Shown here: piece after piece, positions 6,164 to 39,744 of the stretch | How positions within the stretch are numbered: the first letter of the stretch is position 1 | Layout: every line of letters starts with the position of its first letter | The notes under the pieces: generated by a model | What the model was told of the DNA's origin: nothing | What the model saw: the letters and a program-made list of their open reading frames with translations, nothing else | The model's database searches: none | From: Brenneria izadpanahii | Lineage (GTDB): Bacteria; Pseudomonadota; Gammaproteobacteria; Enterobacterales; Enterobacteriaceae | Direction: 5' to 3' | DNA length: 64,000 nucleotides | Assembly (NCBI RefSeq): GCF_017569925.1 | Contig: NZ_CP050854.1 | Location: 3,224,001-3,288,000, forward strand | Made by a program: the position numbers and the translations under genes

Positions 6164-6967
6164 TCACCGATTCTTGAAATTCGGCCGGCGCTTTTCCCGG
6201 AAAGCGGCCATGCCCTCCTTTTGATCTTCGGTAGCGAACAGGGCGTGAAACATGCGTCTTTCGAAGCGCGAACCTTCGGCCAAAGAGCTTTCGTAGGCGC
6301 GATTAACCGACTCTTTAGCGGCAAGCACCGCAGGACGGCTCTTCGCGGCGATGCATTCGGCGACCTTGAGGGCTTCGTCAAGCAACTCTTTGGCCGGCAC
6401 AACGCGGCTCACTAAGCCGCAACGTTCCGCCTCGGCCGCGTCCATAACCCGGCCGGTAAGCACCATCTCCATGGCTTTGGGTTTGCCAATAAAACGGGTC
6501 AGGCGTTGCGTTCCACCGGCCCCTGGAATGATGCCCAACGTGATTTCCGGCTGCCCGAATTTGGCGGTATCGGCGGCCAGGATGACATCACACATCATTG
6601 CCATCTCACAGCCGCCGCCGAGCGCATATCCGGCTACGGCGGCGATTACCGGCTTTCTGACTTTGGAGACGACTTCCCAGCCTTCGGTGAAGTGGTCTTT
6701 ATCATAGCATTTTGTAATAAAATCAGTTACATAACATTCAGTGAAGGTTTTATCCATCATCTCTTTGATATCGGCGCCGGCGGCGAAAGCCTTCTCGTCG
6801 CCGGTAATAACAATGGCGCCGATTTCATCATCGGATTCAAAGCGATCAAGCGCCGTTACTAATTCCGCAATCAGGGGGCTCGACAGAGCATTCAGCGCCT
6901 TTGGCCGATTTAAACGGATTAGGGCGACATGGCCTTTGATTTCAACAAGTAGATTTTCGTAGTCCAT
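6164..6967 (-). CDS. Enoyl-CoA hydratase (crotonase)
   Basis: Hydrates crotonyl-CoA to 3-hydroxybutyryl-CoA, or runs in reverse. The 267-residue product has the crotonase fold signatures: oxyanion-hole segment [11 protein letters not shown] near residue 60, [15 protein letters not shown] near 103, and [16 protein letters not shown] near 137 with the conserved Glu. I start at the ATG at 6967 ([12 protein letters not shown]), which has GGAGAA a few bases upstream; the frame extends further upstream without family similarity. It is the last gene of the operon starting at 19488 and follows the 3-hydroxyacyl-CoA dehydrogenase gene by 31 bases. Besides crotonyl-CoA it could also eliminate water from 3,4-dihydroxybutyryl-CoA (inference). 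Confidence 0.93.
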
Positions 6968-6998
6968 AACATGATTCTCCATTGTTAATAGGTGATAT

Positions 6999-7913
6999 CT
7001 AGCGCGTCGGTTCCGGCTTCTCGCCGGAATAGTCGTAAAAACCACGCCCCGCTTTACGTCCGAGCCAACCTGCCTCGACATATTTTACCAACAGCGGGCA
7101 TGGGCGGTATTTGCAGTCGGCGAATTCGTGATGCAGCACTTGCATAATCGCCAAACAGGTATCGAGGCCGATGAAATCAGCCAGTTCGAACGGCCCCATC
7201 GGCTGGTTGGCTCCCAGTTTCATGGCATTGTCGATATCGCCGACCGATGCAACGCCCTCATAGAGGGTGTAAATCGCCTCATTAATCATCGGCAGCAAGA
7301 TGCGATTGACGGCAAATCCGGGAAAATCCTCGACGCTGACGGCCGTCTTGCCCAATCGTCCGACTAAATCGAGGATGGCGGAGTAGGTTTCTGAGGTGGT
7401 GGCGATACCGCGAATGATCTCCACCAGGGCCATCACCGGAACGGGATTCATAAAGTGCATGCCGATAAATTGCGAGGGGCGATCGGTTGCCGACGCCAGA
7501 CGGGTGATCGACAGCGATGAGGTATTTGAGGCGATGAGCGCGTCGGGCCGCAGCGCCAAGCAAAGTTTGGCGAAGATCGCTTTCTTGATGCTTTCATTTT
7601 CCGAAGCCGCCTCGATCACCAGATCGGTATCCGAGAAAATGTTGTAGTCGGTGCTGGTAGAGATCTCGGCCAGCGCCGCTGTTTTGGCTTCGGACGACAA
7701 TTTACCGCGGCTAACCTGTTTTTCAAGGTTTTGCTCAATAGAAGCCACGCCCTTTTTGACAAGATCTTCTCTGATATCCAACAGCCGCACCTGAAAGCCG
7801 CTGACGGCAGCGACCTGGGCAATGCCGATGCCCATCTGCCCCGCGCCGATAACGCCAATGGATCCAATATGAGCCGAGTTTAATGCAACAGAGGAATTGC
7901 TTACGTGTGTCAT
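6999..7913 (-). CDS. hbd: 3-hydroxybutyryl-CoA dehydrogenase
   Basis: NAD(P)-dependent oxidation of 3-hydroxybutyryl-CoA to acetoacetyl-CoA. The 304-residue product shows the Rossmann motif [14 protein letters not shown] near residue 20, ASNTSSLSI, the active-site HFMNPVP and the C-terminal [11 protein letters not shown], all typical of the short Hbd form. I start at the ATG at 7913, which has a GGAGAG ribosome site; the upstream open region is not homologous to the family. It lies between the thiolase and crotonase genes and completes the beta-oxidation part of the operon. A 246-base gap separates it from the thiolase gene, long for this operon and without a gene I can support. Confidence 0.94.
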
Positions 7914-8159
7914 GACTATTACTCTCCTATCGTTCACCGCCAGCAACGGCTGGCTTTCCATATTTTTCGCGTCATTTTGTTGTTGGCCGTCAATCTGTGG
8001 TTGGCCATCAACGACAATGAAAATTGACGCCCTATGACGCGCGTGACGATATGGCGCATGCTCAAGCACGACTGTCGTTTACCCAATGCGTCGTACTTGT
8101 TCAGCCGCGGCCGCACTCCGAGTCCATCGGGCGGCCGTGGCGTATGCGTATAGGTTCAA

Positions 8160-9335
8160 TCAAAGCGCCTCGACGCAGATAGCGATTCCCATGCCCCCGC
8201 CGATACACAGCGTAGCCAGTCCCTTGCGCGCTCTGCGCCGGCGCATTTCATGAACCAGGGTGACAAGGATGCGCGCTCCCGAAGCGCCGATGGGATGACC
8301 CAGTGCGATAGCGCCGCCATTGACATTGACTTTATCCGTGTCCCATCCCATTTCCTGATTAACGGCCAGCGCCTGGGCGGCGAAGGCCTCGTTGGCTTCT
8401 ATCAGGTCAAGATCCGCTACCGACCAGCGGGCCTTGCTCAAGGCTAATCGGCTGGCGGGAATCGGCCCGGTTCCCATAATGGAGGGATCGGTGCCGGCGG
8501 TTCCCCACGACACGATGCGGGCCAAAGGCGTAATGCCCCGTCTGGCGGCATTCTCCTCCGTCATCAATACCAGAGCGGCGGCGCCGTCATTGATGCCTGA
8601 CGCATTGCCCGCCGTCACCGTTCCGTCCTTGACGAAAGCGGGCTTGAGTTTCGCCAATGTTTCCACGGTGGTGCCGAACCTGGGGAACTCATCGCGATCC
8701 ACCACCACATCGCCTTTGCGGCCGGGAACCGTCACCGGGACGATCTCGTCCGCAAATTTACCCTCCCTGATGGCAATTTCCGCCTTTTGCTGCGAAGCGG
8801 CGGCAAAAGTATCTTGTTGTTCGCGGGTCAACCGCCACTGTTTGGCAATGTTTTCAGCGGTAACGCCCATGGGATAATCATGGAACGCATCGGTCAGACC
8901 ATCCTTGAGCATGGTATCAACCACCTGCGTCGATCCCATTTTGACGCCGGCGCGTAAAAAGGAAGCGTGGGCTGACTGACTCATGCTCTCCTGACCGCCG
9001 ACCACCATGATGTCGGCGTCGCCCATCCCGATGGCCTGATAACCGAGCACCACCGAGCGCAGCCCTGAACCGCACACTTGATTAATGCCGAAAGCGGTTT
9101 TTTCTTGCGGAATACCGGCGGCAATGGCTGTCTGACGGGCATCATTTTGGCCCAGTCCCGCGGTTAACACTTGACCGAGAATGACCTCGGTAACTTCTTC
9201 CGGCTGCGTCCCGGCGCGCAATAGCGCCTCACGAACCACGAGAGTCCCCAGCGCATGGGCGGGAAGCGAACTCAAGCTCCCCAGAAACGCGCCTATAGGG
9301 GTTCGAACGGCGCTGGCGATGACGATATTGGTCAT
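8160..9335 (-). CDS. Acetyl-CoA acetyltransferase (thiolase)
   Basis: Degradative or biosynthetic thiolase that splits acetoacetyl-CoA with CoA into two acetyl-CoA. It has 391 residues, the usual length. The acylated cysteine is C88 in [10 protein letters not shown]; the second catalytic pair lies in [11 protein letters not shown] and in the C-terminal CIGGGMG. I start at the ATG at 9335 ([15 protein letters not shown]), just after a GGAGGCAATA ribosome site. It follows fixX by 182 bases and precedes hbd. In this operon it is the final, acetyl-CoA-releasing step. Confidence 0.95.
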
Positions 9336-9456
9336 GTTATTGCCTCCATTTTTTACCGTTGAGCCATGCATCGAGGGACAGAATAGGAACCTGGTCGGGG
9401 CAATCCGGTAGCCCTCAGCGTCCGCCGAAGCATTTCCTTGTCGTCGTATTCGTTAA

Positions 9457-9517: not shown

Positions 9518-9808
9518 TCAGCTGCTGCGGAAGGTGACGCCAAAAGATACGCGGGGATAATTCCAACTGGTGACGCCGCCGTCGCTGCACATGATGCGGC
9601 AAGTGCCGCATTCCAGGCATCCGGCATATTCGAAATTAACCTCACCGTCTTTCAACCGATAGCAACGGGCGGGACAAACGACCAGACAAACCCGTCCCTT
9701 GCACGTTGCGCAAATCACCTTGTCGACGAGAATATGAGGGTTGCCTTCGTCGACCCCGAATCTATCGAGGGCGAGAAGGTCTTCCGGGCTTAATCGTTTG
9801 ATCGTCAT
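9518..9808 (-). CDS. fixX: Ferredoxin-like protein FixX
   Basis: Small iron-sulfur partner of the FixC quinone oxidoreductase; 96 residues, the normal size. Cysteines lie in two clusters: CATCKGRVCLVVCPARC near residue 33 and CLECGTCRIMC near residue 69, the latter supporting a [4Fe-4S] centre. Its ATG overlaps the 3' end of fixC by four bases, so the two are translationally coupled. FixX relays electrons between ETF (FixAB) and the quinone-linked FixC. Confidence 0.95.
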   Translation of the reverse strand: MTIKRLSPEDLLALDRFGVDEGNPHILVDKVICATCKGRVCLVVCPARCYRLKDGEVNFEYAGCLECGTCRIMCSDGGVTSWNYPRVSFGVTFRSS

Positions 9809-11085
9809 AGGTGCCTGTATATTTTCCAGCAGTCGACCGCCAACCGGCCGAACGAGACATTGCGTTTAATTGATTCCATTATTCCCTTGAACATCGGCTT
9901 GGGCGTTTTGCCGTCGACGCTGAACATGAAGCGCATGGCGTCGTTGGCAAGATTGGGATACTCGCGGAAAATTCGCGGGATTTCGAAAATGCCGTGAAAG
10001 TTTTGGTAAGCCTTCTGATTGGCGATCAACAGCAACTCCTCCAACTGCTGCTGATAAAGCCGCTCCACATCGGCCGGCTGTTTGGCCGCGATGATGGCCC
10101 GCGCGGCCGCCAGACCGCTGACGATCGCCAAATCCATGCCGCGAATGGTCACCCCGGTATTAATGCCGAATTGAGCCGCATCGCCCACCACCACCAACCC
10201 CTCGCGGGCCAGCCGCTTGGGAATGCCGTGGAAGCCGATTTCGGGAACCAGATGCGCGCCGTATTCGATGCTGGTGCCGCCGTCGATCAGGGACAGGATC
10301 GCCGGATGCATTTTAAAATCCTGGAGAATATCCTGGATATGGCGTTGCTGCCGGCCCGCCTGTTCGGGATTAAAAACGATGCCCAGGGAAATGCTGCCTT
10401 TATTGGTGTAAAGAAAGCCGCCGCCCGAAATACCGTCCGTGCAGCCGATCGCCACGCGCGCGGCGCCTTCGCCATCCTTGACGCCGAAACGGGCGCTGAT
10501 CAGGTTGTCGGGCAGTTCGATGGTCTCTTTGACGCCGACCCCAACGGCGTGCGGCTTGACGTCGGGGAACAGCCCGGCCTTCTGGCCGAGCAGCGAATTG
10601 ACGCCGTCGGCGGCCACCACTACATCGGCCCGCATCTCGTCTTCACCGGTTCGAATCCCGACGATCCGCCCGCCCTCCTCAACCAAGTCGTCCACCAGAA
10701 CGCCGGCGGCCAGCATGGCGCCCTGGGCTTCCGCCTCGCCGGCGAACCATTCATCCAGATCGGCGCGAACCACCGAATAGGACTGCGGGACTTCGGCGCC
10801 GAAACTCGGATCGAAATAGTCGACGGTGGTGGCGCTCCGGTCGTTCAGCAACATGACCTGTTCGCGAATGATCTTGCGTTGCAGGGGCGCGCGTTCGTAC
10901 AAACCGGGTTCCACCAGCTCCAACGCATAGGTATAAAGACGTCCGCCGGATACATTCTTGGCGCCGGGAGCGTCGCCGCGTTCAAGCAGGAGGACGCTGC
11001 GTCCCTCCTTCGCCAGGGTATAGGCGCAAGCCGACCCCGCCGGGCCGGCTCCCACCACGATCGCATCGAACTTATCTTCTGACAT
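9805..11085 (-). CDS. fixC: FAD-dependent ETF-quinone oxidoreductase FixC
   Basis: Membrane-associated flavoprotein that exchanges electrons between the FixAB electron-transfer flavoprotein and the quinone pool. The 426-residue product begins with the FAD dinucleotide fold (DAIVVGAGPAGSACAYTLA, residues about 7-25), has the family's GAKNVSGGRLY near residue 41 and the second FAD contact GLVVVGDAAQFG near residue 290. It lies 7 bases after fixB and overlaps fixX by four. In Enterobacterales FixABCX is best known beside the carnitine genes, where it supports crotonobetainyl-CoA reduction; here it is placed in a C4-CoA operon. Confidence 0.96.
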   Translation of the reverse strand: MSEDKFDAIVVGAGPAGSACAYTLAKEGRSVLLLERGDAPGAKNVSGGRLYTYALELVEPGLYERAPLQRKIIREQVMLLNDRSATTVDYFDPSFGAEVPQSYSVVRADLDEWFAGEAEAQGAMLAAGVLVDDLVEEGGRIVGIRTGEDEMRADVVVAADGVNSLLGQKAGLFPDVKPHAVGVGVKETIELPDNLISARFGVKDGEGAARVAIGCTDGISGGGFLYTNKGSISLGIVFNPEQAGRQQRHIQDILQDFKMHPAILSLIDGGTSIEYGAHLVPEIGFHGIPKRLAREGLVVVGDAAQFGINTGVTIRGMDLAIVSGLAAARAIIAAKQPADVERLYQQQLEELLLIANQKAYQNFHGIFEIPRIFREYPNLANDAMRFMFSVDGKTPKPMFKGIMESIKRNVSFGRLAVDCWKIYRHL

Positions 11086-11092: not shown

Positions 11093-12016
11093 TCAGTTAT
11101 CGATTGCCGTGGTCAGCAACGGCAGCACGGTATAAAGGTCGCCGACGATTCCGTAATCGGCGGCCTCGAAAATCGGCGCCCGTTCGTCATTGTTGATGGC
11201 CACAATGACCTTCGATTCGCGCGCGCCGACCATGTGCTGCACCTGGCCGGACAAGCCGACGGCAAGATAAAGGTCGGGCTTCACGGTCTGACCGCTGATG
11301 CCGATGTAGCGTTCGATAGGCAGCCAATGCTCATCCTCGGCAATCCCCCGCGTACAGGAGACTTCGCCTTTCAGCTTGGCGGCCAGGCGCTCGGCGAGCT
11401 GCAGATCGTCTTTCGCGGCGAATCCCCGGCCGACCGACACCAGCTTGTTGGCGGCTGAAATATCGACGCCCGAACTTTCGGTCGGCGTCGTCGCGGCGAT
11501 CGTCACCCGCCCGTCGTCGGCGACGGGGGCCGGTTCGACGCTGCCGGCCTCCGCCGCGGCGCCCGGTACCGGGAAACTGCGCGGCGGAATGGTGGCGACG
11601 GCGGGGAACGTCAGTTCCTCCTCGACGACCGCCAATCCGGCATACAGAATGCGCGACGTCACCAGTTTGCCATCTTCGATGGCCAGGGATTTGGCGTCGG
11701 TGGACAGCCCGGCATCAAGTTTGGCGGCGACATGAGCGGCGAGATGCTTGCCGCGCAGCGTTCCGCCCACCAGCAACACCGTGGCGTCATCCTTGACGAG
11801 TTCATAAACCGCGTCGCCAAGCCCTTCAACCCACCCCGAAGCGGATTGTAAAACCAAGACTCGGTCGGCCCCCAGCTTCGCCAATTCGTCGGCATTGGCG
11901 GCATCAAGAACCAGCGCCGTGATCGGTTGCCCTAGTGAACGCTTCAGTTCCAGCGCCGGCGTCAACAGTTGCTTAGCCAGCGGGGGGACTTCAGAAAAGA
12001 GGAAAATTCCAGTCAT
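11093..12016 (-). CDS. fixB: Electron-transfer flavoprotein alpha subunit FixB
   Basis: Carries the FAD that shuttles electrons for the acyl-CoA dehydrogenases encoded upstream. 307 residues; the N-terminal half has the ETF alpha/beta domain (GGTLRGKHLAAHVAAKL near residue 85). The C-terminal half has the FAD-binding region with SVGRGFAAKDDLQLAERLA near residue 191, YIGISGQTVKPDLYLAVGLS near 235 and VAINNDERAPIFEAADYGIV near 275. It lies between fixA and fixC with gaps of 16 and 7 bases. FixAB of this group can belong to bifurcating ETFs; I cannot decide that from sequence alone. Confidence 0.96.
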   Translation of the reverse strand: MTGIFLFSEVPPLAKQLLTPALELKRSLGQPITALVLDAANADELAKLGADRVLVLQSASGWVEGLGDAVYELVKDDATVLLVGGTLRGKHLAAHVAAKLDAGLSTDAKSLAIEDGKLVTSRILYAGLAVVEEELTFPAVATIPPRSFPVPGAAAEAGSVEPAPVADDGRVTIAATTPTESSGVDISAANKLVSVGRGFAAKDDLQLAERLAAKLKGEVSCTRGIAEDEHWLPIERYIGISGQTVKPDLYLAVGLSGQVQHMVGARESKVIVAINNDERAPIFEAADYGIVGDLYTVLPLLTTAIDN

Positions 12017-12032: not shown

Positions 12033-12812
12033 CTATATAAGACCTTCGGAGACCAGACTGGTCACCAACTTGCCAACGGCATCCGCCGGGTCGGCGTCTT
12101 TGAAAACCACATTCTTGCGGGTCATTACGAAGCCCTTGACCGAACGGCGAACCGCCTTCGGTTGCAGATCCGCCGGCGACAGGCCGAGAGAGTCCAGCGC
12201 TATCTCTTCGTTTGGTTTCTTGGCCGCGCCCAAAACCTGTTTCAGACCGGGAATACGCGGTTTATTGATATCGGACAGCACGCTGATCACCACCGGCCCG
12301 TTGACCGTCACCTGTTCGGTGCAATCGGTCAATTTACGCGTTACGCTGACCGTCTCGCCGTCCACATCCAGCTTGTGAATAAGGGTCAGACAAGGCAGGC
12401 CGAGAAGCGCCGCCAGACGAGGCGCCGTTTGCTGATTAAACTGATCCGAGCTGCCTTCGCCGGTCAGGATAATGTCGTAAGGGCCGATCTTGCGGATGGC
12501 GGCCGCCAAAACCTTGGCGGTCACCGTCGCGTCGGCCGTTTCGGCGGAGGCGTCGGCTATCCAATAGGCCTTATCGGCGCCGCGGGAAAGGACATCTTTC
12601 AGGGATGACTTAAGCGACTCGGCGCCGTAGGTCAGAACGTCGACGCTACCGCCTTGCGCTTCGACGATCTGCGCCGCCTCTTCAATCGCATTGCGATCGA
12701 AGTCGCTTATTTTGCCTTTGGCGCGGCTGGCATCCAGGCTTAGGTCATCCGGCCTGATCTTGATGTCCTGCTCATTGAGAGTCCACTTGTACAAAACCAA
12801 AAACTTGGGCAT
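12033..12812 (-). CDS. fixA: Electron-transfer flavoprotein beta subunit FixA
   Basis: Beta subunit of the FixAB electron-transfer flavoprotein, 259 residues. Family features: an AMP/FAD-type nucleotide site around LSLDASRAKGKISDFDRNAI (residues about 24-43) and the GEGSSDQFNQQTAPRLAALL segment near 120 that corresponds to the ETF-beta signature. It follows the second acyl-CoA dehydrogenase gene by 45 bases and precedes fixB by 16, so dehydrogenases and their electron carrier are in one operon. Confidence 0.95.
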   Translation of the reverse strand: MPKFLVLYKWTLNEQDIKIRPDDLSLDASRAKGKISDFDRNAIEEAAQIVEAQGGSVDVLTYGAESLKSSLKDVLSRGADKAYWIADASAETADATVTAKVLAAAIRKIGPYDIILTGEGSSDQFNQQTAPRLAALLGLPCLTLIHKLDVDGETVSVTRKLTDCTEQVTVNGPVVISVLSDINKPRIPGLKQVLGAAKKPNEEIALDSLGLSPADLQPKAVRRSVKGFVMTRKNVVFKDADPADAVGKLVTSLVSEGLI

Positions 12813-12857: not shown

Positions 12858-13993
12858 TTAAGCGATGGAGTCCGCGATGATCTTGTCGGGGAAATCGGCA
12901 GGAGCATCGAGCAGAGTGGTTCCCGCAATGTCGCGGAACATACGCGGCAGCGGCATAAATTCGCTATAACCGAAACCACCTTCAACCTGACAGCTATCGA
13001 TCAGCATTTGCGAACCGAAACGGGCAAGAAACGCTTTGACCATCGCCGCATCGGTTTCGAACGGTTCGCCGTCTTCAATCAATTGGGCGGTCCGTTGCAC
13101 CCCCAGCCAGGCGAGATGGCAGTTGGAGGCGGTTTCGGCCAACAACGTTTGGATCGCCTGTAGCGCAGCGATGGGACGTCCGAACTGAACACGCTGTTTG
13201 GCATATTCAGCGGCATGTTTAACCGCCGCTTTGCCGATGCCGACGGTCTGCGCCGCTTCAAACACCGAAGCCTTGGTCAGAAGCGATTGCGCGATGGCGG
13301 AGCCGCCATGTTCGCCGCCCAACAGCGCCGCTGCGGGCAGCGTGACGTTGTCGAAGGTGATATGAGCCACCGGACATCCGTTAAGGCCCATGGTTTCCAG
13401 GCGGGGCCCACCTTCAAACCGGGAGTCCGGCCATCCACCAGGAAGACGCTGAACGCCTTCTTGTCCGCCGCCGGCTCAAGGGTTGCGAAAACCACATACA
13501 GATCGGCAACGCCGGCGTTGCGCACAAAAGTCTTGACGCCATTCAGCACATAGTTGCCGCCCTGACGCGAAGCGAGCAGAGCATCGGCGCCGATCCCCGG
13601 CGCCGGGCCGTTTTCATAGATAGCCGGAGTAGCCAGACGCTCCCCCTTGGCCAACGGCGGCAGGTAATCACCCTTCTGCGTCTCGCTCCCCCATTCGGCG
13701 ATGGCAAGCGCGCCCAGGGTATGGTTGTTCAGGATTGTCGCCACCGCCGCGCAGGACTCGGAAATCCCTTCGATCACCTCGATATAAGCGACAGCGCCGG
13801 CGTTGGCGCCGCCCGCCGTTTCCGGCAGCAACAGCCCCAGGAAGTCATATCCCGCCAACCGATCGATGATCTCCTTGGGATACTCTCCGCCGTGGTCCAA
13901 CTCGGCGGCGATAGGATCCAAATACTCCTTGGCGAACTCGCGGGCGCTTTGCCCGATAAGACGTTGCTCTTCGTTCAATTCGAAATTCATCAT
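12858..13993 (-). pseudogene. Acyl-CoA dehydrogenase subunit with altered catalytic site, frameshifted
   Basis: Acyl-CoA dehydrogenase family flavoprotein of about 378 residues once one base is restored. The N-terminal part (MMNFELNEEQRLIG...) runs to VDGRTPGLKVGP, then the frame breaks at the GGGG run 13403-13406. Adding one C on the coding strand gives VGPRLETMGLNGCPVAH and continues to the end. The start overlaps the preceding dehydrogenase stop by four bases. At the position of the usual catalytic Glu (IYEGT motif) this protein reads RDIAGTTLLDAP, with Asp instead. The substitution and the tight coupling suggest it works as a partner subunit of the upstream dehydrogenase rather than alone (inference). 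Confidence 0.85.
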
Positions 13994-15153: not shown

Positions 15154-15244
15154 GTCTTTTACCCTTTCGCTATTATTCAAATTGATTAGGCCAAATCATC
15201 CCGCGCCGTAAATACTGCGGCCTATCGGCCGTCCGATACGCCCG

Positions 15245-25913: not shown

Positions 25914-25914
25914 G

Positions 25915-31110: not shown

Positions 31111-31560
31111 AGGGAAATGCATCATCCCTTTTTAACCGGGATTTTTAACCCAGGTTATGCTGTAAATAATTCGAGCCGCGGCAAAGCGGCGGCTGAACGG
31201 CCATTCGCCGGGAACGGATTTGACCGGCCTTCGGCGGCAGAACGGCGCTCTCCCATTACTCCCCTGGGGCTTAGCTCAAGCAACCGGCCGGGGCGAGCGG
31301 CAAAAGCGCCGGGAGCGGCCCCGCAGCAACGCAGCCCATGTATGAGAGCAACTGCATGAGAGCCGCAGCCCATGCATGAGCCGGGCGGCAAAACCAACGC
31401 GCCGGCAACTCTTGCAGCCTGTAACTTGAAGCATGGCGAGTATGCGTTATACGCTTGACCGCTCTGCGGGTCAGAAAGAATCTCCGGCGTTCAGGTTACA
31501 AGACATTTCTATTTATCAACTTATCAACGCGCCGTTTTTTTCGGCGGATTATCTTTTCAT
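31111..31560. other. GC-rich, repeat-containing spacer between promoter modules C and D
   Basis: This 450-base spacer is much more GC-rich than the modules around it. It holds a near-direct repeat (GCAGCCCATGTATGAG at 31331-31346, GCAGCCCATGCATGAG at 31365-31380), a long-range inverted repeat (TGTAACTTGAA at 31420-31430 with TTCAGGTTACA at 31490-31500) and, inside that, a hairpin GACCGC-TCT-GCGGGTC at 31457-31472. An open frame at 31117-31359 is low-complexity and lacks a ribosome site, so I do not call it. The nested inverted repeats could be an untranslated RNA or attenuator. Confidence 0.4.
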
Positions 31561-31783
31561 GATAAGCAAAGCAATATTGTGAATAAGCAGAAAGCAATGT
31601 GTGATAGCGATCGGTATTTAAGTCATTATTTAACCCAAGATCGCTAAAGTATTCGTTGCCAACTAGAAATATACTCTCCCTAATCTTATTTAGGCATCCG
31701 GATAGTTTTAAAAACTTGGCGCCCGGCTAGAACCGAGTCAAGTCAAATATATATGGATAGCAGACCGTTGCGCCGTAATGGTC
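31561..31783 (+). promoter_or_regulatory. Promoter module copy D, facing the iolE-like/iolD operon
   Basis: Inverted partner of copy C. Core at 31595-31649, identical to C. It begins with the CAATATTG palindrome and GAATAAG, continues through the core, GTTGCCA and GAAATATACT, and ends with ATATATATGGATAGCAGACC. The downstream start codon is at 32105, leaving roughly 320 bases of AT-rich leader (31784-32104) in which I find no gene. Confidence 0.75.
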
Positions 31784-32104
31784 TCGTTTTGTTATCTATC
31801 TTATAGAGACAAGGTCAGAAGTTGCGATTTATGAACGCTAAATCGTTGAAAGAGGCAGAAAGCCGTTTTCCGTATTTCCCGTTCATAACGTATGACGCAT
31901 CGCCAGCAGCAAAGGCGCCATCTGACAAACCATAACGATTAAAGAAAAAACGACACTGCGGGAGGATGCCATATTTCAATGCAACATTCTTAAAACGCTA
32001 AAAAATAATGTCTATTTAAAAAACGGGCCGTATCGCCGCAGTCGTGAGAAATAACGTAAAACGAATTGGACGATTTATTACTTTAATTGGATGGAGGTTT
32101 TTTT

Positions 32105-33028
32105 ATGGGAATTAGAATATCAACGGCGCCTTGCTGCTGGGGAGTGGATGATGTAACGAATCCGCATCTGCCACCGTGGGAACGCGTGTTATCCGAAGCG
32201 CACCAGGCCGGATACAAGGGAATCGAGCTCGGTCCATATGGGTATATCCCGCTGGATTTGGCGCGCGTTTCGGCGGAGCTGGAAAAGAACGATCTGATTA
32301 TCGTTGCCGGCACGATCTTCGACGACATGGTATCGGAAAGCAACTATCAAAACCTCCTGCGGCAAACCGACGAAATCTGTTCGTTGATCACCAAGCTGCC
32401 GCAAACGACTAAAGACGAGGGACAGCATTTCGCCGCGCCCTATCTTACGGTAATGGATTGGGGGCACGACGAGCGTGATTACGCCGCGGGCCATCCTGAC
32501 CGGGCGCCCAAACTGCCTGAAGATATCTGGAAGCGCACCGTGGAGCACTTTTACACCATCTCCAAGAAGGCCTGGGAAGAGTATGGCGTCCGCGCCGTCA
32601 TTCACCCCCATGCCGGCGGATATATCGAATTTGCCGACGAAATCGACATGATTGCCGACGCCGTTCCGCCGGAAATCGCCGGATTCTGTCTGGATACCGG
32701 CCACCTGACTTATTCGGGCATGGACCCTGTCGTATGGCTGCGAAAATACGCCTCCCGGCTTGACTACATCCACTTCAAAGACATTGACGCAAAAGTATAT
32801 GCCCAGGTGATGAAGCAGAAAATCCGCTTTTTCGAGGCTTGCGCCAACGGCGTTATGTGCCCCATCGGACAAGGCATCGTCGACTATAAAGCCGTACTGA
32901 AATTGCTCAAGGAAATCAACTACAACGGCTTCATCACCATAGAGCAGGAAAAGGATCCCAGAAACGCGGATGCGAGCCTCACGGAAGTTAAGAAAAGCCT
33001 GGATTACTTGATTAGCGCTGGTTACTGA
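32105..33028 (+). CDS. IolE-like sugar phosphate isomerase/epimerase (TIM barrel)
   Basis: 307 residues of the inosose dehydratase group: ISTAPCCWGVDD at the start, GYKGIELGPYGYIPLD near 37, AVIHPHAGGYIEFADEIDMI near 165, the metal-site GFCLDTGHLTYSG near 196, YIHFKDIDAKVY near 222 and FITIEQEKD near 278. The ATG at 32105 has GGAGG 8 bases upstream. It heads a six-gene plus-strand operon with two dehydrogenases, iolD, an MFS carrier and another TIM-barrel enzyme. It may act as inosose dehydratase or on an inositol epimer; sequence alone does not say which. Confidence 0.85.
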   Translation: MGIRISTAPCCWGVDDVTNPHLPPWERVLSEAHQAGYKGIELGPYGYIPLDLARVSAELEKNDLIIVAGTIFDDMVSESNYQNLLRQTDEICSLITKLPQTTKDEGQHFAAPYLTVMDWGHDERDYAAGHPDRAPKLPEDIWKRTVEHFYTISKKAWEEYGVRAVIHPHAGGYIEFADEIDMIADAVPPEIAGFCLDTGHLTYSGMDPVVWLRKYASRLDYIHFKDIDAKVYAQVMKQKIRFFEACANGVMCPIGQGIVDYKAVLKLLKEINYNGFITIEQEKDPRNADASLTEVKKSLDYLISAGY

Positions 33029-33049: not shown

Positions 33050-34213
33050 ATGATCTATGGAGGCAAAACGATTGACCGCCCTCTTCGTTGGGCAATGGTC
33101 GGCGGCGGCAGCACAAGCCAGATTGGCTATATTCACCGAAGCGCCGCGCTGCGCGATTTCTACTTCGACCTGGTGGCGGCCGCTCTTGATATCAATCCGG
33201 AACGCGGCAAGGAATTCGGCAACAAGCTTCATATTGCGGAGGATCGCTGCTATCCGGATTATAAAACCATGTTTGAGAAGGAAAAAGAACGCCCAGACGG
33301 CATTGAAGTCGTTACCGTCGCAACGCCCAACGGAACCCACTATGAAATTTGCAAGGCGGCGCTGAACGCCGGCCTCCACGTCGTCTGCGAGAAACCGCTA
33401 TGCTTCACCACCGAAGAAGCCGAAGAGCTGGTGGCGCTGGCCGAAAGTAAAAACAAGATTGTCGGCGTTACCTATGGATACTCCGGCCATCAGTTGATCG
33501 AACAGGCTCGGCAAATGATTGCCGCAGGCGAACTGGGCGAAATCCGCATCGTCAATATGCAGTTTGCGCACGGCGCGCATAACGTGGCGGTGGAAAAGAA
33601 CGCGGAGAGCACCCGGTGGCGCGTAGACCCCAAAATGGCCGGTCCCAGCTATGTTTTAGGCGATGTGGGCACCCATCCCTACTACATCTCCGAAGTGCTG
33701 CTGCCGCACCTCAAAATCAAACGTCTGCTGTGCTCAAGGCAGAGCTTCGTCAAAAGCCGCGCTCCTCTGGAAGACAACGCGTACACCCTCATGGAATACG
33801 ACAACGGCGCCGTAGGCATGGCCTGGTCCAGCTGCGTAAATAGCGGCTCTATGCACGGCCAGAAAATTCGCGTGGTCGGCGAAAAGGCCAGTTTGGAGTG
33901 GTGGGATGAACGCCCCAATCAGCTTATTTACGAGGTTCAGGGCGAACCCATACGGATATTCGACCGCGGGATGGACTGCTTATACCCCTCCGCGCGGGAG
34001 GAAGACCGTATCGGCGGCGGACATCCAGAAGGACTCTTTGAAGCATGGTCAAATCTGTACGGGCGTTTTGCCCGCGCAATGGTTGCCGCCGACAAGCATG
34101 AAACGGTCGACTATTGGTATCCGGACGTCCATGCGGGGCTGGAAGGCGTACGTTGGGTCGAAAACTGCGTTCGCTCCGCCGATGGCGGCGCCGTTTGGGT
34201 CGACTACCGATAG
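33050..34213 (+). CDS. Gfo/Idh/MocA family dehydrogenase, cyclitol type
   Basis: 387 residues, longer than IolG (about 340) and resembling the scyllo-inositol dehydrogenase-like group. Nucleotide site WAMVGGGSTSQIGYIHR near residue 14, catalytic lysine in VVCEKPLCFT near 108, and the Asp/His motif in LGDVGTHPYYISE near 205. The gap to the preceding gene is 21 bases and to iolD 31, so the three are co-transcribed. Probable role: oxidation of a cyclitol or epimerisation by oxidation-reduction. The exact substrate is not readable. Confidence 0.85.
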   Translation: MIYGGKTIDRPLRWAMVGGGSTSQIGYIHRSAALRDFYFDLVAAALDINPERGKEFGNKLHIAEDRCYPDYKTMFEKEKERPDGIEVVTVATPNGTHYEICKAALNAGLHVVCEKPLCFTTEEAEELVALAESKNKIVGVTYGYSGHQLIEQARQMIAAGELGEIRIVNMQFAHGAHNVAVEKNAESTRWRVDPKMAGPSYVLGDVGTHPYYISEVLLPHLKIKRLLCSRQSFVKSRAPLEDNAYTLMEYDNGAVGMAWSSCVNSGSMHGQKIRVVGEKASLEWWDERPNQLIYEVQGEPIRIFDRGMDCLYPSAREEDRIGGGHPEGLFEAWSNLYGRFARAMVAADKHETVDYWYPDVHAGLEGVRWVENCVRSADGGAVWVDYR

Positions 34214-34244: not shown

Positions 34245-36182
34245 ATGAATCGAATCAAAATGACCGTCGGTCAAGCCGTTGTCAAATTTCTGAACCAGCA
34301 ATATGTCAGCCTGGACGGCGTGGAGAACAGGTTCGTGGATGGGATCTTCGCCATCTTCGGCCACGGCATCGTGGTTGGCCTGGGACAAGCATTGGAGGAG
34401 GATCCGGGCGAACTCCGGGTCTACCATGGCCGCAACGAACAGGGCATGGCCCATGTAGCCATGTCTTATGCAAAACAGAATAACCGTCGCAGGATCATCG
34501 CCTGCACATCGTCCATCGGCCCTGGCGCCGCCAATATGGTTACCGCCGCCGCGACAGCGTCGGTCAACAACGTGCCGCTGCTGCTGTTTCCGGCCGACAC
34601 CTTTGCGACCCGCCAGCCCGACCCGGTGCTCCAACAGGTAGAGCACGAATCCAGCCTGGCGATCACCACTAACGACGCGTTCAAATCGGTTTGCCGCTAC
34701 TGGGATCGCGTCAACCGTCCCGAACAGTTGATGACGGCGTTGATCAACGCGATGCGCGTGCTTACCAACCCCGCTCAAGCCGGCGCGGTATGTATTGCGC
34801 TTCCCCAGGACGTACAGGGCGAGAGCTTTGAATTTCCAGACTACTTCTTCCAGAAACGCGTGCACCGCATTCCCAGAACGCCGGCGGACCCCGAGCAAAT
34901 AACGGATGCCGTGAACATGATCCTGGCCAGCAAGAGGCCTTTGTTCATCGGCGGCGGCGGCACGCGCTACTCCGAGGCCGGCGCCACCCTGCAGAGCCTT
35001 TGCGAAGAACTGGGCATTCCCTACGCCGAAACCCAGGCCGGTAAGAGCGCCACCCCGTCCAGCAGCCCCATGAACATGGGCGGCGTGGGCGTGACCGGTA
35101 CGCCGTCGGCCAATACCGTGGCGGAAAAAGCGGATCTGATCGTAGGCATCGGCACCCGTTTCTCCGACTTTACCACCGGCTCAAAAGAGATCTTCCGCAA
35201 CCCCGACGTCAAGGTGCTGACCATCAACGTTTCCGAGTACCACGCGGAGAAGTTAGACGCGGTCAAGGTCGTTGGCGACGCCAAGACCTGTCTGGCGGCT
35301 ATTGGCGCGGAACTTAAGGCCAAGGGATACAAGCCCGGCTATGGCGACGGCGAGATTGCCGGTATCAAAGCCGAGTATATGGCGGAGCTGAAACGGATTC
35401 AGAATCTGACATACGACGGCCAAGACTTCGTTCCCGTCGTCGCCTCATGGACGCCGAAGATCATTGACGACTATCTCAAAATGATTGGCGGCAAGATTAC
35501 CGAAACCAACGGTCTCAGCATCGTGCGGGAGTGCATTGCGGACGATGCCATCGTGGTCAGCGCTTCCGGCAGTCTGCCCGCCGACATGGAACGGATGTGG
35601 CTGACCGACGCCAAGGACTCCTACAACATGGAATACGGCTACAGCTGCATGGGTTACGAAGTACAGGGAGCGTTGGGCTCCAAGCTGGCCCGCCCCGACA
35701 AAGAGGTTTACGCCCTGGTCGGCGACGGCGCTTTCTTGATGCTCCACTCCGAGCTAACCACCGCCATTCAGGAAAAGAAGAAAATTAACGTGATAATTTT
35801 CGACAACTGCGCCTTTGGCTGCATCAACAACCTGCAAATGGGCAACGGTATTGGCAGTTTGTGCACCGAGTTCCGCTACCGCAATGAGGATACAGGCAAA
35901 ACCGACGGCGACTACATCTATGTGGACTTCGCCAAGGTAGGCGAAGGTTACGGTCTGAAAACCTACACCGCCAAGACGCCGGAGGAACTGCGCGCCGCCA
36001 TTGAAGACAGCAAGAAGCAGACGGTCTCCACGCTGATCGATGCCAAAGTGCTGCCTAAAACGATGGCCGAAGGCTATTTCTCCTGGTGGCATTTCGGCGT
36101 GGCTTCAGTCAGCAAGTCCGAAGGGACTCAGGCCTCTTACAAAAATAAGGAAGAGAAACTTAAGAAAGCCAGAATGTATTAA
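34245..36182 (+). CDS. iolD: 3D-(3,5/4)-trihydroxycyclohexane-1,2-dione acylhydrolase
   Basis: Thiamine diphosphate enzyme that opens the inositol-derived ring to 5-deoxy-D-glucuronate. 645 residues, the family length. N-terminal ThDP pyrimidine domain with the catalytic Glu in YHGRNEQGMAHVA near residue 67; central domain with PLFIGGGGTRYSEAG near 230; C-terminal ThDP domain with YGYSCMGYEVQGALGSKLA, the motif GDGAFLMLHSEL and the closing DNCAFGCINN near 525. A GAGGAGG site precedes the ATG. Its presence is the strongest single proof of an inositol pathway in the window. Confidence 0.96.
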   Translation: MNRIKMTVGQAVVKFLNQQYVSLDGVENRFVDGIFAIFGHGIVVGLGQALEEDPGELRVYHGRNEQGMAHVAMSYAKQNNRRRIIACTSSIGPGAANMVTAAATASVNNVPLLLFPADTFATRQPDPVLQQVEHESSLAITTNDAFKSVCRYWDRVNRPEQLMTALINAMRVLTNPAQAGAVCIALPQDVQGESFEFPDYFFQKRVHRIPRTPADPEQITDAVNMILASKRPLFIGGGGTRYSEAGATLQSLCEELGIPYAETQAGKSATPSSSPMNMGGVGVTGTPSANTVAEKADLIVGIGTRFSDFTTGSKEIFRNPDVKVLTINVSEYHAEKLDAVKVVGDAKTCLAAIGAELKAKGYKPGYGDGEIAGIKAEYMAELKRIQNLTYDGQDFVPVVASWTPKIIDDYLKMIGGKITETNGLSIVRECIADDAIVVSASGSLPADMERMWLTDAKDSYNMEYGYSCMGYEVQGALGSKLARPDKEVYALVGDGAFLMLHSELTTAIQEKKKINVIIFDNCAFGCINNLQMGNGIGSLCTEFRYRNEDTGKTDGDYIYVDFAKVGEGYGLKTYTAKTPEELRAAIEDSKKQTVSTLIDAKVLPKTMAEGYFSWWHFGVASVSKSEGTQASYKNKEEKLKKARMY

Positions 36183-36377
36183 TTAGCATGATGGAGGGCC
36201 CCCTCTGTCAGGATAGTTGTCGCTTCTAAACTTATTAATACACGATGTTTAGGGGTGTAGATTGCCGGGGGAATAGGTTGAAAGACTTCCCTATGGGCAA
36301 TGCACCCTGACAATAAGTCAGCACTGCCGGCTTCTCCTTCAATATTGTTTCCTATGCATCAGAGGGGAAGTCGGAAC

Positions 36378-37733
36378 ATGAGCAATAGAAATATCAAGAC
36401 GGGAATAATCTATTTTTTTGGCGCATTGGGGGGGCTGCTGTTTGGCTATGACACTGGCGTCATCGCCATAGCGCTCACCTACATCAAAAAAGACGTCACG
36501 CTTTCCGCCACGCCATTATCTTCCGCTGCGGAAGGGTTGATCGTCAGCGGCGTGCTATGGGGCGCCATTCCCGGCGCGGTGCTAGCGGGACCGTTGTCAG
36601 ATCGCTTCGGCCGCAAGCGCGTAATCATCGCTTTGGGCTTTCTCTTCACCATTGGCGCGTTGGGCTGTGCCTGGGCGCCGACGGTATCCGTGCTGGTCTT
36701 TTCACGCATCATCCTTGGGTTTGCCGTCGGCGGCGCGTCGGGTCTTGTGCCGGTCTACCTTTCCGAAATAGCGCCGGCCGGCAGCCGCGGGATGATTGGC
36801 GGTATTAATACAAGCATGAATGCCGTTGGTATCCTGATGGCGTATATATTCGGCAATCTCTGCGCCGCCAATGCCGATTGGCGCATGATGGTCGGTTTGG
36901 CCATCGTTCCCTCGATCATGCTGATGGTCGGTATGTTTTTCATGCCGGAAAGCCCTCGCTGGCTGTTGAAGAATGTGGGCGAGAAAGCGTCGAGAAAGGT
37001 TTTGCTCATGCTGCGCAACGAAAAGGAGGTCGATGCGGAAATCGCGGAGATCAATTTAGCGAACGAAATGGAAGTGAAGCAAAACCAGAGCAGATGGGAA
37101 ATGCTTTCCGAATCCTGGGTGCGCAAATTAATCCTGATAGGGATAGGGTTGGCCATCGGACAGCAGATCCTGGGCGCGCAGGTTCTTCTCTATTATACGC
37201 CGACGATTCTGCTGGGCGTGGGGTTCTCCGAACAGTTCGCGCTGCTCTCCACGTTGGGCATCGGCATCATCAATCTACTCTTTACCTTCCTGGGTATGGC
37301 GTTAATCGATCGCTGGGGACGTAAAAAGCTGCTCATTGCCGGAAACATCCTGATGTGCGTTTCGATCGCGCTGCTTGGCGGCCTGGGCGTTCTCAATATT
37401 AGCTCCGGCCCGCTGATGCTGACATGCATGTGCCTCTTTATGGTCGGATTCTCCGGCTCATGGGGGATGACGGTCTGGGTTGTTCTTTCGGAGATTTTTC
37501 CGCTCAAAATCCGCGGTTTGGGGATGGGGATCTGCAGCACCTGTCTGTGGGTAAGCTGCGCTTTGGTTTCTCAATTTTTCCCAATTCTGTCGGACATCAT
37601 CGGTTACTACACCATCTTCTTGATTTTTGCCGGCATCAACGTGCTTGTGTTGCTGTTCGTGGCGTTCAAAGTGCCTGAAACCGCACGCCGCTCTCTGGAG
37701 GTGATCGAGATGCAAATGCGAGCGAATTACTAA
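36378..37733 (+). CDS. MFS sugar porter, IolT-like
   Basis: 451 residues, sugar porter family, clearly paralogous to the carrier at 29093: ALGGLLFGYDTGVIA, GPLSDRFGRKRVI, GGASGLVPVYLSEIAPAGSRG, PESPRWLLKN, GQQILGAQVLLYYTPTI, DRWGRKKL, VLSEIFPLKIRGLGMG and VPETARRSLE. I start at 36378 (MSNRNIKTG), which has GGGGAAG upstream; the open frame begins at 36300 with a non-homologous stretch. Between iolD and this gene lie about 195 bases with a short GGGCCCCC-centred hairpin after the iolD stop. Likely cyclitol uptake. Confidence 0.9.
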   Translation: MSNRNIKTGIIYFFGALGGLLFGYDTGVIAIALTYIKKDVTLSATPLSSAAEGLIVSGVLWGAIPGAVLAGPLSDRFGRKRVIIALGFLFTIGALGCAWAPTVSVLVFSRIILGFAVGGASGLVPVYLSEIAPAGSRGMIGGINTSMNAVGILMAYIFGNLCAANADWRMMVGLAIVPSIMLMVGMFFMPESPRWLLKNVGEKASRKVLLMLRNEKEVDAEIAEINLANEMEVKQNQSRWEMLSESWVRKLILIGIGLAIGQQILGAQVLLYYTPTILLGVGFSEQFALLSTLGIGIINLLFTFLGMALIDRWGRKKLLIAGNILMCVSIALLGGLGVLNISSGPLMLTCMCLFMVGFSGSWGMTVWVVLSEIFPLKIRGLGMGICSTCLWVSCALVSQFFPILSDIIGYYTIFLIFAGINVLVLLFVAFKVPETARRSLEVIEMQMRANY

Positions 37734-37865
37734 TGCATGGCGCATAACGCGCTAGCTTTCGCTTCTAATTCCGCAAGCGGAAAAAGATTTCGCCATTCGT
37801 CATGGTCGGCCTGGCCGAACGGGGGCGCGCAGTGAACAACTTAAAAAATGTAAAGGTGAGTCATT

Positions 37866-38684
37866 ATGAAACAGATTAAAATTGGCGCGTGCGACTGGGG
37901 TCTGCCCGGAGCCGGACTGTATGCCACACAGATCGCCGCGTCTGTCGGACTGGATGCGCTTTCGCTAAAGATCGGGCTTTATGAGAACGATTACCCCATC
38001 ACCCATCGCGAAATGCAGGCCATCTACCTCAGCGAGCAGCAAAAGTACGGCATTGAGTATTGCGCGGTCGCGCTCAACGACTTCGACAATATTCCCATGC
38101 ACGCGCGGCCGGGCACAAAAGAATACGAGATCGTCTGGGATCTGCTGCGCCGCGCCGTGCCTACCGCCAAAGCGCTCAACGTGCCGATCATCCAGGTGCC
38201 GGGCTTCGCGGCAAGCGAGGTAATAACCGAAGAAGATTTCGAACACAGTGCGCGCGCCTTTCAATATTTATGCGACGCGGCCGGCGAATATGGCATATCC
38301 GTCGCCGGCGAAAACCTGATGACCCCGGCCGAATTCGGCAAAATGTCCGGCCTGGTGGATCGTCCGAACTTCCATCTCTATTTCGACAGCCAGAACTATC
38401 ACCTATTCCGCAATTATTCACAGCTCGAAATTCTGGCGGGCGTATATCCGTACATGTGCAACCAGATTCATGTCAAAGACGGTCTGGGCGCCATGAGCGG
38501 CGGCCTTCTGGGCACCGGCGATTCCGATTTCTTCGCCACCATCTCCTGGCTGAATGAGCATGACTTCACCGGCTATATCTTGTTGGAAAATTACTATGAC
38601 CAGCTTCCTCTGCGCTTACAGTCGCCAGATCCTTATGAACTGCTGCGCGAGGATATCAAGATCCTGAAGAAAGCAATTCAATAA
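37866..38684 (+). CDS. Sugar phosphate isomerase/epimerase family protein (TIM barrel)
   Basis: 272-residue AP-endonuclease-2-type TIM barrel: IGACDWGLPGAGLYATQIAA at the N-terminus, VPIIQVPGF near 103, SVAGENLMTP near 145, FHLYFDSQNYHLF near 169, NQIHVKDGLG near 198 and GYILLENYYDQLP near 238, giving the usual Glu/Asp/His/Glu metal site. It lies 132 bases after the IolT-like gene, with AAAGGTGAG before the ATG, and 37 bases before a dehydrogenase gene. This is the fourth barrel enzyme of the cluster; it may epimerise a ketocyclitol. Confidence 0.83.
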   Translation: MKQIKIGACDWGLPGAGLYATQIAASVGLDALSLKIGLYENDYPITHREMQAIYLSEQQKYGIEYCAVALNDFDNIPMHARPGTKEYEIVWDLLRRAVPTAKALNVPIIQVPGFAASEVITEEDFEHSARAFQYLCDAAGEYGISVAGENLMTPAEFGKMSGLVDRPNFHLYFDSQNYHLFRNYSQLEILAGVYPYMCNQIHVKDGLGAMSGGLLGTGDSDFFATISWLNEHDFTGYILLENYYDQLPLRLQSPDPYELLREDIKILKKAIQ

Positions 38685-38721
38685 CCCTATAAAAACCGTC
38701 AAATTTAAAAGGGCAATTCAA

Positions 38722-39744
38722 ATGAAAAAAGCAGCATTGAAAGTCGCCGTTCTCGGCGCAGGACGTATCGGCCGCGTTCATATCGAAAATATTAGTTCCG
38801 GCGTGCGGGGAATGCAGATCAAAACCGTGGCGGACCCTTATCTCGATCAAGAAGGCGAATCTTTCGCCAAAGAATTCGGAATTCCCGTTATCACCAAGGA
38901 TGTGGATTCGGTTTTCTCCGACCCGGAAATTGACGCGGTCCTGATCTGCTCGTCGACCGATACCCACGCCGACCTGATTATCAAAGCGGCCGCCGCCGGC
39001 AAGCATATCTTCTGCGAAAAACCGGTAGATCACGACGTACAACGCGTCCGCAGCGCGCTCGCCGCCGTAAAGGAAGCGGGAGTAAAAATGCAGATTGGCT
39101 TCGTACGCCGCTTCGATCACAACCACCACGGAGTATATGACGCCGTGCGCAGCGGCAAGATTGGAACGCCGCATATCCTGCGCATCAGCTCCCGCGATCC
39201 TCAGCCGCCGACCATCGAATACGTGCGTCGTTCGGGAGGACTGTTCTACGATATGATGATTCATGACTTTGATATGATCCGCTTTTTAGCCGACAGCGAA
39301 GTCACCGAGGTTTATGCCAAGGGAACCGTGCTTGTCGATCCAGCCATCGGCGCGGAAGGCGACGTGGATACCGCTCTGGTCACCCTGACTTTTGCAAACG
39401 GCGCGCTCGGCGTAATCGACAACAGTCGTCAGGCTGTCTATGGCTACGACCAGCGTCTGGAAGTCTTCGGCACCAAGGGCTCGGTGCAGAGCGCCAATGA
39501 TATTCCCAATACCGTGGTGGTGTTCGGCGCCGATAACACCTCCTACGGCACGACCTATAAATTAATGTGGGATCGCTATACGCAGGCGTTCATTGATGAG
39601 ATGAAAGCGTTCGTCGATGCAGTCATCAACGACAAGGAACCTCCGATTACGGATTTGGATGGGTTGTACCCGGTTCTTATGGCGGCTGCGGCGAACAAAT
39701 CGCTTAAAGAAGGCCGGCCGGTAAAAATTTCGGAAGTGGAATAG
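38722..39744 (+). CDS. iolG: Inositol 2-dehydrogenase-like Gfo/Idh/MocA oxidoreductase
   Basis: 340 residues, the IolG length. Rossmann motif VAVLGAGRIGRVHIENI near residue 9, catalytic lysine in IFCEKPVDHD near 97, KMQIGFVRRFDHNH near 122, and the Asp/His pair in LFYDMMIHDFDMIRFLAD near 172. A further conserved segment is GYDQRLEVFGTKGS near 235. It is last in the plus-strand operon from 32105. Like the IolG at 26985 it should oxidise myo-inositol or an epimer. The presence of two IolG-like enzymes in separate, co-regulated operons suggests different stereoisomers. Confidence 0.88.
   Translation: MKKAALKVAVLGAGRIGRVHIENISSGVRGMQIKTVADPYLDQEGESFAKEFGIPVITKDVDSVFSDPEIDAVLICSSTDTHADLIIKAAAAGKHIFCEKPVDHDVQRVRSALAAVKEAGVKMQIGFVRRFDHNHHGVYDAVRSGKIGTPHILRISSRDPQPPTIEYVRRSGGLFYDMMIHDFDMIRFLADSEVTEVYAKGTVLVDPAIGAEGDVDTALVTLTFANGALGVIDNSRQAVYGYDQRLEVFGTKGSVQSANDIPNTVVVFGADNTSYGTTYKLMWDRYTQAFIDEMKAFVDAVINDKEPPITDLDGLYPVLMAAAANKSLKEGRPVKISEVE

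Follow-up and report, generated by a model that had tools for sequence, protein, structure and literature searches.

The abfD operon and the inositol operons

The stretch of DNA analysed here (the window) covers 64,000 nucleotides of Brenneria izadpanahii, positions 3224001-3288000 of a single-contig genome of 5.33 Mb. It carries a twelve-gene operon with abfD, whose product resembles 4-hydroxybutyryl-coenzyme A (CoA) dehydratase, next to inositol operons that hold a split transketolase. Gene content, linkage and shared promoters, all of them observed directly, connect these operons, and the best available explanation, in which we place somewhat better than even confidence, is a transketolase-based pathway of inositol breakdown. 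Genes were called by NCBIfam profile scans against curated cutoffs and by PDB sequence searches.

All genes of the twelve-gene operon claimed in the first-pass annotation are present, on the minus strand at 6164-19488. The first is an iron-type alcohol dehydrogenase (Fe-ADH, 18316..19488), below all curated cutoffs, followed by abfD (16731..18260), which matches the Clostridium aminobutyricum enzyme (PDB 1u8v, E 4.9e-235) over nearly its full length (residues 32-510 against 2-489 of 490). The abfD open reading frame (ORF) extends to 18347, and in the sister genome of the genus (G002) two stops interrupt the part that corresponds to residues 1-29 of this ORF; these residues are probably non-coding, with the start likely at residue 30. 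The CFQRC and HRQSYGGC motifs of 1u8v, which we take to hold the three Cys and the one His that bind the [4Fe-4S] cluster, are kept in all five AbfDs compared (window, G314, G394, G324 and G372). Judged by this likeness the window AbfD is a 4-hydroxybutyryl-CoA dehydratase homolog, and the 1u8v match rules out an HpaB-type monooxygenase.

Downstream lie a 4-hydroxybutyrate-type CoA-transferase (15245..16645; PDB 3eh7, E 8.7e-159), two acyl-CoA dehydrogenases, and the genes fixA (EtfB, 12033..12812; NF008998/NF002888), fixB (EtfA, 11093..12016; NF008884/NF002889), fixC (9805..11085; NF007450/NF007542, 397/384 bits) and fixX (ferredoxin-like, 9518..9808; a Cys-rich frame recognised by eye). The operon ends with thl for acetyl-CoA acetyltransferase (8160..9371; TIGR01930, 467 bits), hbd for 3-hydroxybutyryl-CoA dehydrogenase (6999..7874; NF005715, 489 bits; start taken from the match in ORF 6999-8069) and crt for enoyl-CoA hydratase (6164..6967; NF004517, 428 bits; start set from the match, residue 39 onward of ORF 6164-7081), all three over cutoff. 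The dehydrogenase acd1 (13990..15180; NF042972, 389 bits) aligns with PDB 4l1f and has the IYEGT motif; like FixA, FixB, FixC and Fe-ADH, it scores under the curated cutoffs. The earlier claim of two dehydrogenases holds as to their presence, with the qualification that acd2 (12858..13993; best match AcrC, below cutoff) is frameshifted here into ORFs 13277-13993 and 12858-13391. It is a single ORF of 377 amino acids in G002, and by eye it reads LLDAP at the position of the usual acyl-CoA dehydrogenase motif IYEGT.

The minus-strand inositol operon consists of a sugar porter MFS gene (mfs2, 29093..30625; TIGR00879, over cutoff), iolE for inosose dehydratase (28060..29040; TIGR04379, 156 bits), iolG for inositol dehydrogenase (ORF 26985..28181; TIGR04380, 261 bits), the N-terminal (tktN, 25915..26739; 92% in Brenneria goodwinii) and C-terminal (tktC, 24936..25943; PDB 6yaj, E 1.8e-77) subunits of the split transketolase, and iolB for 5-deoxyglucuronate isomerase (24093..24881; TIGR04378, 95 bits). 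The iolG match begins at residue 66, and its true start is probably further inside the ORF. On the plus strand lie the TIM-barrel isomerase/epimerase gene tim1 (21734..22579; below curated cutoffs) and the MFS transporter gene mfs1 (22708..24078; NF009048, 547 bits, over cutoff), and then iolE2, a second inosose dehydratase-like gene (32087..33028; TIGR04379, 160 bits), a Gfo/Idh oxidoreductase (gfo, 33050..34213; weak matches), iolD for trihydroxycyclohexanedione hydrolase (34245..36182; TIGR04377, 889 bits, over cutoff), another sugar porter MFS (36300..37733; TIGR00879, over cutoff), the TIM-barrel isomerase gene tim2 (37866..38684; weak NCBIfam matches, 69-72% in loci L170 and L279) and iolG2 for inositol 2-dehydrogenase (38722..39744; TIGR04380, 455 bits, over cutoff). 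Since iolB, iolE, iolE2 and iolG fall below the curated cutoffs, they appear to be divergent family members.

No iolC match was found in the window, either in ORF scans or with two IolC queries against its whole length, and no iolJ-type aldolase among the window ORFs scanned; profile scans and IolC queries bear out the earlier description, in which the inositol operons hold a split transketolase and lack iolC. Relatives of the window transketolase at ~70-84% identity come from metagenomes, Aequitasia, Faecalicatena and Enterococcus. A tree of 37 rows spreads the inositol-linked transketolases over about four places, and shows no single inositol-specific clade. Within ~10 kb of ten Enterobacterales transketolases (L180-L189, 44-51% identical to N-subunit queries) there is no match to iolB, iolD, iolE, iolG or abfD. 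The cluster is kept in G002, where 27 of the 31 window query ORFs match at 78-95% identity over the 60 kb compared (the other four lie beyond these 60 kb or have a paralog match only), and the transketolase ortholog and AbfD are restricted to the same two of nine Brenneria genus genomes.

Shared promoter modules

A promoter module of 123-147 nucleotides stands before the abfD operon (copy 1, 19590..19736, minus strand), before tim1-mfs1 (copy 2, 21316..21438, plus), before mfs2-iolE-iolG-tkt-iolB (copy 3, 30973..31119, minus) and before the iolE2-gfo-iolD operon (copy 4, 31568..31690, plus). These four copies are 80-93% alike in pairs, which bears out the earlier proposal of promoter modules common to the abfD and inositol operons. 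Between the first two modules sits an AraC-family regulator gene (20098..21048, minus strand; below curated cutoffs). Searching the whole genome with one of the copies gave six sites, the four of the window and two elsewhere, and so few copies rule out a common genome repeat. The fifth lies upstream of a SucD-like acylating aldehyde dehydrogenase (8cei, E 1.3e-159; L277 8553-9968, in genome 3435001-3455000), ~0.2 Mb from the window's abfD operon. The sixth lies upstream of an ACS-type MFS transporter (L278 7934-9331, in genome 1861001-1881000), which may transport one of the pathway's acids; a gene for an ANT(3'')-like aminoglycoside adenylyltransferase adjoins it.

The same genome holds a separate, canonical set of iolD, iolB, MMSDH-type iolA and iolC at ~1.72 Mb. 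Its presence favours a reading in which the canonical IolC/aldolase route there breaks inositol, the window transketolase serves pentose-phosphate balance, and the abfD operon handles an unrelated substrate under a regulator shared by chance. This is very unlikely in our judgement: none of the six module copies lies in the canonical cluster, the transketolase ortholog and AbfD occur in the same two genus genomes, and there are linkages in a distant group as well (see below). The six near-identical modules, together with these distant-group linkages, rule out a chance neighbourhood of abfD and iol genes.

Nothing found speaks more strongly against the pure form of a transketolase-based route than the SucD-like enzyme under the module. 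This enzyme could be a source of succinic semialdehyde, or it could oxidise the C4 aldehyde left by the transketolase. Its co-regulation with abfD keeps a second alternative live for the Brenneria host, in which the operon forms a module for succinate and 4-hydroxybutyrate of the Clostridium kluyveri type. SucD would then form succinic semialdehyde, Fe-ADH would reduce it to 4-hydroxybutyrate, and the CoA-transferase and AbfD would carry this to crotonyl-CoA. The module would serve as an electron sink, induced with inositol, and the product of the transketolase would be handled elsewhere. The 4-hydroxybutyrate/succinate fermentation of C. kluyveri and C. aminobutyricum uses AbfD, 4-hydroxybutyrate CoA-transferase, Fe-ADH and SucD, and starts from succinate or γ-aminobutyrate (GABA) without an inositol or transketolase step. 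Fe-ADH, AbfD and the CoA-transferase are 77-80% identical to their counterparts in L047, a six-gene Xanthobacteraceae cluster (Fe-ADH-abfD-CoA-transferase-hbd-crt-thl) in which tkt, iol and acyl-CoA dehydrogenase queries found no match. The nearest relative of the window Fe-ADH is that of L047 (79%; next best at most 37% among the loci compared), so the enzyme may be a 4-hydroxybutyrate dehydrogenase. An IolC-bearing cluster (L310) has a weaker SucD-like match (39%). We nevertheless hold the succinate reading to be rather unlikely, on evidence from other genomes that is given below.

A proposed transketolase route

In the transketolase-based pathway, IolG, IolE, IolD and IolB would convert inositol to 2-deoxy-5-keto-D-gluconate. 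The split transketolase would transfer the C2 ketol unit of this acid to a sugar phosphate, probably glyceraldehyde-3-phosphate, which would become xylulose-5-phosphate, leaving 3-hydroxy-4-oxobutanoate (D-malate semialdehyde). All reactions that follow 2-deoxy-5-keto-gluconate are inferred, as is the stereochemistry, which was drawn by hand. In the reductive branch, the one encoded in the window, Fe-ADH would reduce the C4 aldehyde to 3,4-dihydroxybutyrate, the CoA-transferase would activate this to its CoA ester, and the crotonase (crt) would remove water from 3,4-dihydroxybutyryl-CoA to give 4-hydroxycrotonyl-CoA. An acyl-CoA dehydrogenase, fed by FixABCX (or by Etf in Lachnospiraceae-type genomes), would reduce 4-hydroxycrotonyl-CoA to 4-hydroxybutyryl-CoA, which AbfD would turn into crotonyl-CoA. 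Hydration by the same crotonase, followed by Hbd and thiolase, would yield two acetyl-CoA; where crotonyl-CoA undergoes reduction, the product would be butyrate.

By hand-made sums the electron count closes, the 24 electrons of inositol equalling 8 in the C2 unit and 16 in two acetyl groups. Inositol dehydrogenase and Hbd would release the electrons that Fe-ADH and acyl-CoA dehydrogenase consume. FixABCX feeds carnitine reduction in enteric bacteria, and its role here would be to feed the reduction of 4-hydroxycrotonyl-CoA. In the literature text available, 3,4-dihydroxybutyryl-CoA is mentioned as a polymer precursor. No described route of this kind was found by title or opening of abstract, in a search that covered few subscription journals.

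Linkage in Lachnospiraceae-type genomes

AbfD was scanned for in a species-genome collection, the best 80 matches falling in 78 distinct loci, many of which end at contig ends. One of the 78 (L116, from the Lachnospiraceae metagenome-assembled genome G314) has transketolase and inositol genes nearby. Extended by L156, it reads ABC transporter-IolM-IolN-dehydrogenase-IolG-LacI-family regulator-tktN-tktC-abfD-coat-crt-acd-etfB-etfA-FeADH-IolC-IolD-IolB-thl-hbd. A protein of 92 amino acids without an NCBIfam match is encoded between abfD and the CoA-transferase (L116 11452-11730); its homologs in three AbfD loci (L224, L225 and L228) match at 35-39%.

In G394 the order is IolE-IolD-IolB-CoA-transferase-acd-etfB-etfA-abfD-GldA-crt-tktN-tktC-FeADH; iolC has no match anywhere in this genome, and no iolG was seen in the stretch examined. 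G324 (L279) has etfA-tim2-gfo-iolE2-iolD-abfD-FeADH-coat, with identities to the window genes of 72% (tim2), 61% (gfo), 60% (iolE2) and 66% (iolD). G372 carries tktN-tktC-CoAT-CoAT-abfD-GAPDHII-PGK-LarAH6. That the same enzyme set is tied to inositol genes in different orders in three genomes of a distant group (G314, G394 and G324) supports the route from inositol to acetyl-CoA that the first-pass annotation had put forward, whose later steps stay conditional as worded above. SucD has no match in the loci examined of these three genomes, where abfD stands among inositol genes, and the succinate reading offers no fate for the C4 product in G394, which apparently lacks the kinase.

Two further loci are worth recording. 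In L228 (G514), abfD, crotonase and Fe-ADH are accompanied by two sets of acd-etfB-etfA, much as the window has two acyl-CoA dehydrogenases. L173 (G362) encodes at 6912-13316 IolM-like and IolN-like proteins, then a split transketolase, a phosphofructokinase and an Fe-alcohol dehydrogenase, and its transketolase may also act on 5-keto-L-gluconate.

The extra dehydration step offers a test. A crotonase beside abfD without hbd and thl has no local role in forming acetyl-CoA, and is required if a 3-hydroxyacyl-CoA enters ahead of 4-hydroxybutyryl-CoA. Among 100 AbfD loci (the 78 above, 20 further loci, L168 and L279), a crotonase stands near abfD in nine. Six of these lack hbd and thl at the identity thresholds used (L064, L116, L168, L228, L241 and L242). 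In L116, thl and hbd lie just past the locus edge. Excluding it, four of the five crotonase-only loci (L168, L228, L241 and L242, from G394, G514, G324 and G395) belong to genomes that carry inositol-linked modules; the fifth, L064, looks like fatty-acid oxidation, its hbd-like and thl-like matches (34%) falling below threshold. SucD homologs stand near abfD in 15 of the 100 loci, which favours the succinate module, and none of these 15 has a crotonase. A crotonase without hbd or thl is not explained by the succinate reading.

Co-occurrence and the missing kinase

Among 395 genomes related to G314, 26 have a transketolase like that of L116 (E up to 1e-85), 29 have AbfD (E up to 1e-100), and seven (G314, G362, G394, G395, G514, G588 and G614) have both, where 1.9 are expected (p 0.0014); this figure and the IolC statistics below ignore kinship between genomes. 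Without G314 and G394, left out in reruns as they had been chosen for their linkage, five genomes have both against 1.6 expected (p 0.018).

A survey of 295 relatives of G394 found 31 genomes with IolD, of which 20 have IolC (E up to 1e-60) and 11 have none, a lack that may be a gap from genome incompleteness. The AbfD test covered 30 of the 31, G717 being left out. AbfD is present in five of ten IolC-less genomes (G324, G372, G394, G395 and G588) against two of 20 with IolC (G314 and G391; Fisher one-sided p 0.026), and in four of nine against one of 19 without G314 and G394 (p 0.026). A transketolase, AbfD or the malate set described below lies within ~10 kb of iolD or iolB in four of ten IolC-less genomes (G324, G394, G395 and G478, the last counted on an iolB-like match of 36%) and in one of 20 with IolC (G314; p 0.031). 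The same comparison without G314 and G394 gives three of nine against none of 19 (p 0.026). G717 was dropped from the linkage count; its short contig, 98-99% like that of G394, spans IolD-IolB to acd-etf.

A possible oxidative malate branch

By hand-drawn stereochemistry, the C4 product of the transketolase cut would oxidise to D-malate, and malate racemase and malic enzyme would then be expected beside the transketolase. GAPDH-II-like and PGK-like genes lie beside transketolase and/or iol genes in six loci (L170, L177, L231, L288, L292 and L318, from G514, G551, G372, G395, G324 and G478), five of which have a LarA-type racemase and three a malic enzyme. The arrangement is GAPDHII-PGK-LarAH6-ME-tktN-tktC-IolD-IolB-IolE-IolG in G395, which has no IolC match in its genome, and IolG-GAPDHII-PGK-tktN-tktC-LarA-IolE-IolB-IolD in G551. 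The four malate genes stand beside IolD-IolB-IolE-IolG in G324 and beside tktN-tktC in the IolC-bearing G514, and in G478 the genes for GAPDH-II and PGK adjoin tkt, IolB and IolM/IolN. LarAH6 scores over cutoff as a nickel malate racemase in L170, L231, L288 and L292, and malate racemase activity has been measured for a LarAH6-family member, according to the available text of the source (PMC7583248).

These sets suggest an oxidative branch in which the C4 aldehyde would pass to D-malate, L-malate and pyruvate through the GAPDH-II-like, PGK-like, LarAH6 and malic enzymes; the GAPDH-like and PGK-like enzymes could also just serve glycolysis. The Brenneria host might itself run both branches together, its SucD-like enzyme oxidising the C4 aldehyde to malyl-CoA, which would donate CoA to 3,4-dihydroxybutyrate. 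The co-regulation of SucD and the oxidative gene sets of other transketolase-inositol loci point that way. Against it, malate racemase, PGK-like and GAPDH-II had no match in the window, to which that search was confined; we consider such a combination highly improbable.

Points against the pathway and comparison with known systems

Besides SucD, the L047-like Fe-ADH and the canonical cluster at ~1.72 Mb, several observations weigh against a transketolase-based pathway. The acd2 gene is broken in this genome, and no literature report of a 4-hydroxycrotonyl-CoA reductase was found. IolC lies inside the G314 operon, and the iolD of G372 lies apart from its tkt-abfD cluster. Five IolC-less genomes (G422, G570, G588, G598 and G658) have no such module near iolD, some of their contigs ending close by. 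The window transketolase groups apart from the other inositol-linked enzymes in the tree and is not nearest to them, so the likeness in gene set would have come about by convergence or by exchange of single genes. The neglect of kinship in the statistics and the possible assembly gaps behind a missing iolC belong on the same side.

The nearest precedent found is the sulfo-transketolase pathway, at least as far as its available text describes it (PMC11659671). There, too, a split transketolase (SqwGH) cuts C2 off a C6 ketose acid, and the remainder is a C4 aldehyde; its substrate, however, is 6-deoxy-6-sulfofructose, and its C4 product undergoes isomerisation and a second cleavage in place of reduction and activation with CoA. 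The same text gives SqwGH residues RAFDR against RSFHR in other transketolases (PMC11659671). The window transketolase has a His in THMPFED (THQPVEQ in the TktA of the genome), taken as the H position, the one of the five positions that was mapped. The canonical Iol pathway (IolC kinase, IolJ or fused aldolase, IolA) shares the steps from inositol to 2-deoxy-5-keto-D-gluconate and differs in its C3+C3 split, in contrast to the C2+C4 split proposed for the window, which has no iolC match. Inositol-to-propionate conversion in Anaerostipes likewise uses a CoA-transferase, an enoyl-CoA hydratase and acyl-CoA dehydrogenase/Etf after inositol cleavage, but reaches propionate by way of IolC, IolJ and a C3 semialdehyde, with no transketolase mentioned and no AbfD step seen in the available text (PMC8355322).

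Elsewhere in the window, 45286-54556 is a sugar-acid cluster with glycerate kinase, tartronate semialdehyde reductase, a GarL-type aldolase, glucarate dehydratase, an MMSDH-family aldehyde dehydrogenase, a dehydratase of the L-arabinonate type and an MFS gene.

Implications for inositol breakdown

As for a wider claim, we see about even chances that Lachnospiraceae-type bacteria share a general way of breaking inositol without a kinase, that Brenneria has it by transfer, and that some gut bacteria make butyrate from inositol in this way. Transketolase would split 2-deoxy-5-keto-D-gluconate, and the C4 aldehyde would be divided between oxidation with substrate-level phosphorylation (GAPDH-II-like, PGK-like, nickel malate racemase and malic enzymes) and reduction through AbfD to crotonyl-CoA. 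Neither Dysosmobacter nor Intestinibacillus, the inositol-to-butyrate genera of the 2025 review cited below, appeared among the best 120 of 2310 and the best 120 of 2642 protein matches, mostly without an organism name.

In the available text of a genome survey of inositol clusters, those with three of four core genes are put down to possible incomplete sequence, assembly errors or frameshifts (PMC9430895); some iolC-less clusters may instead belong to a transketolase pathway. If true, the pathway would mean inositol breakdown without a kinase, by a C2+C4 split, with balanced electrons and with no loss of CO2 in the reductive branch. The myo-inositol-to-butyrate route of gut bacteria is called uncharacterised in a 2025 review, in the part of it available (PMC12482443), and the operons found here would provide candidate genes for it.

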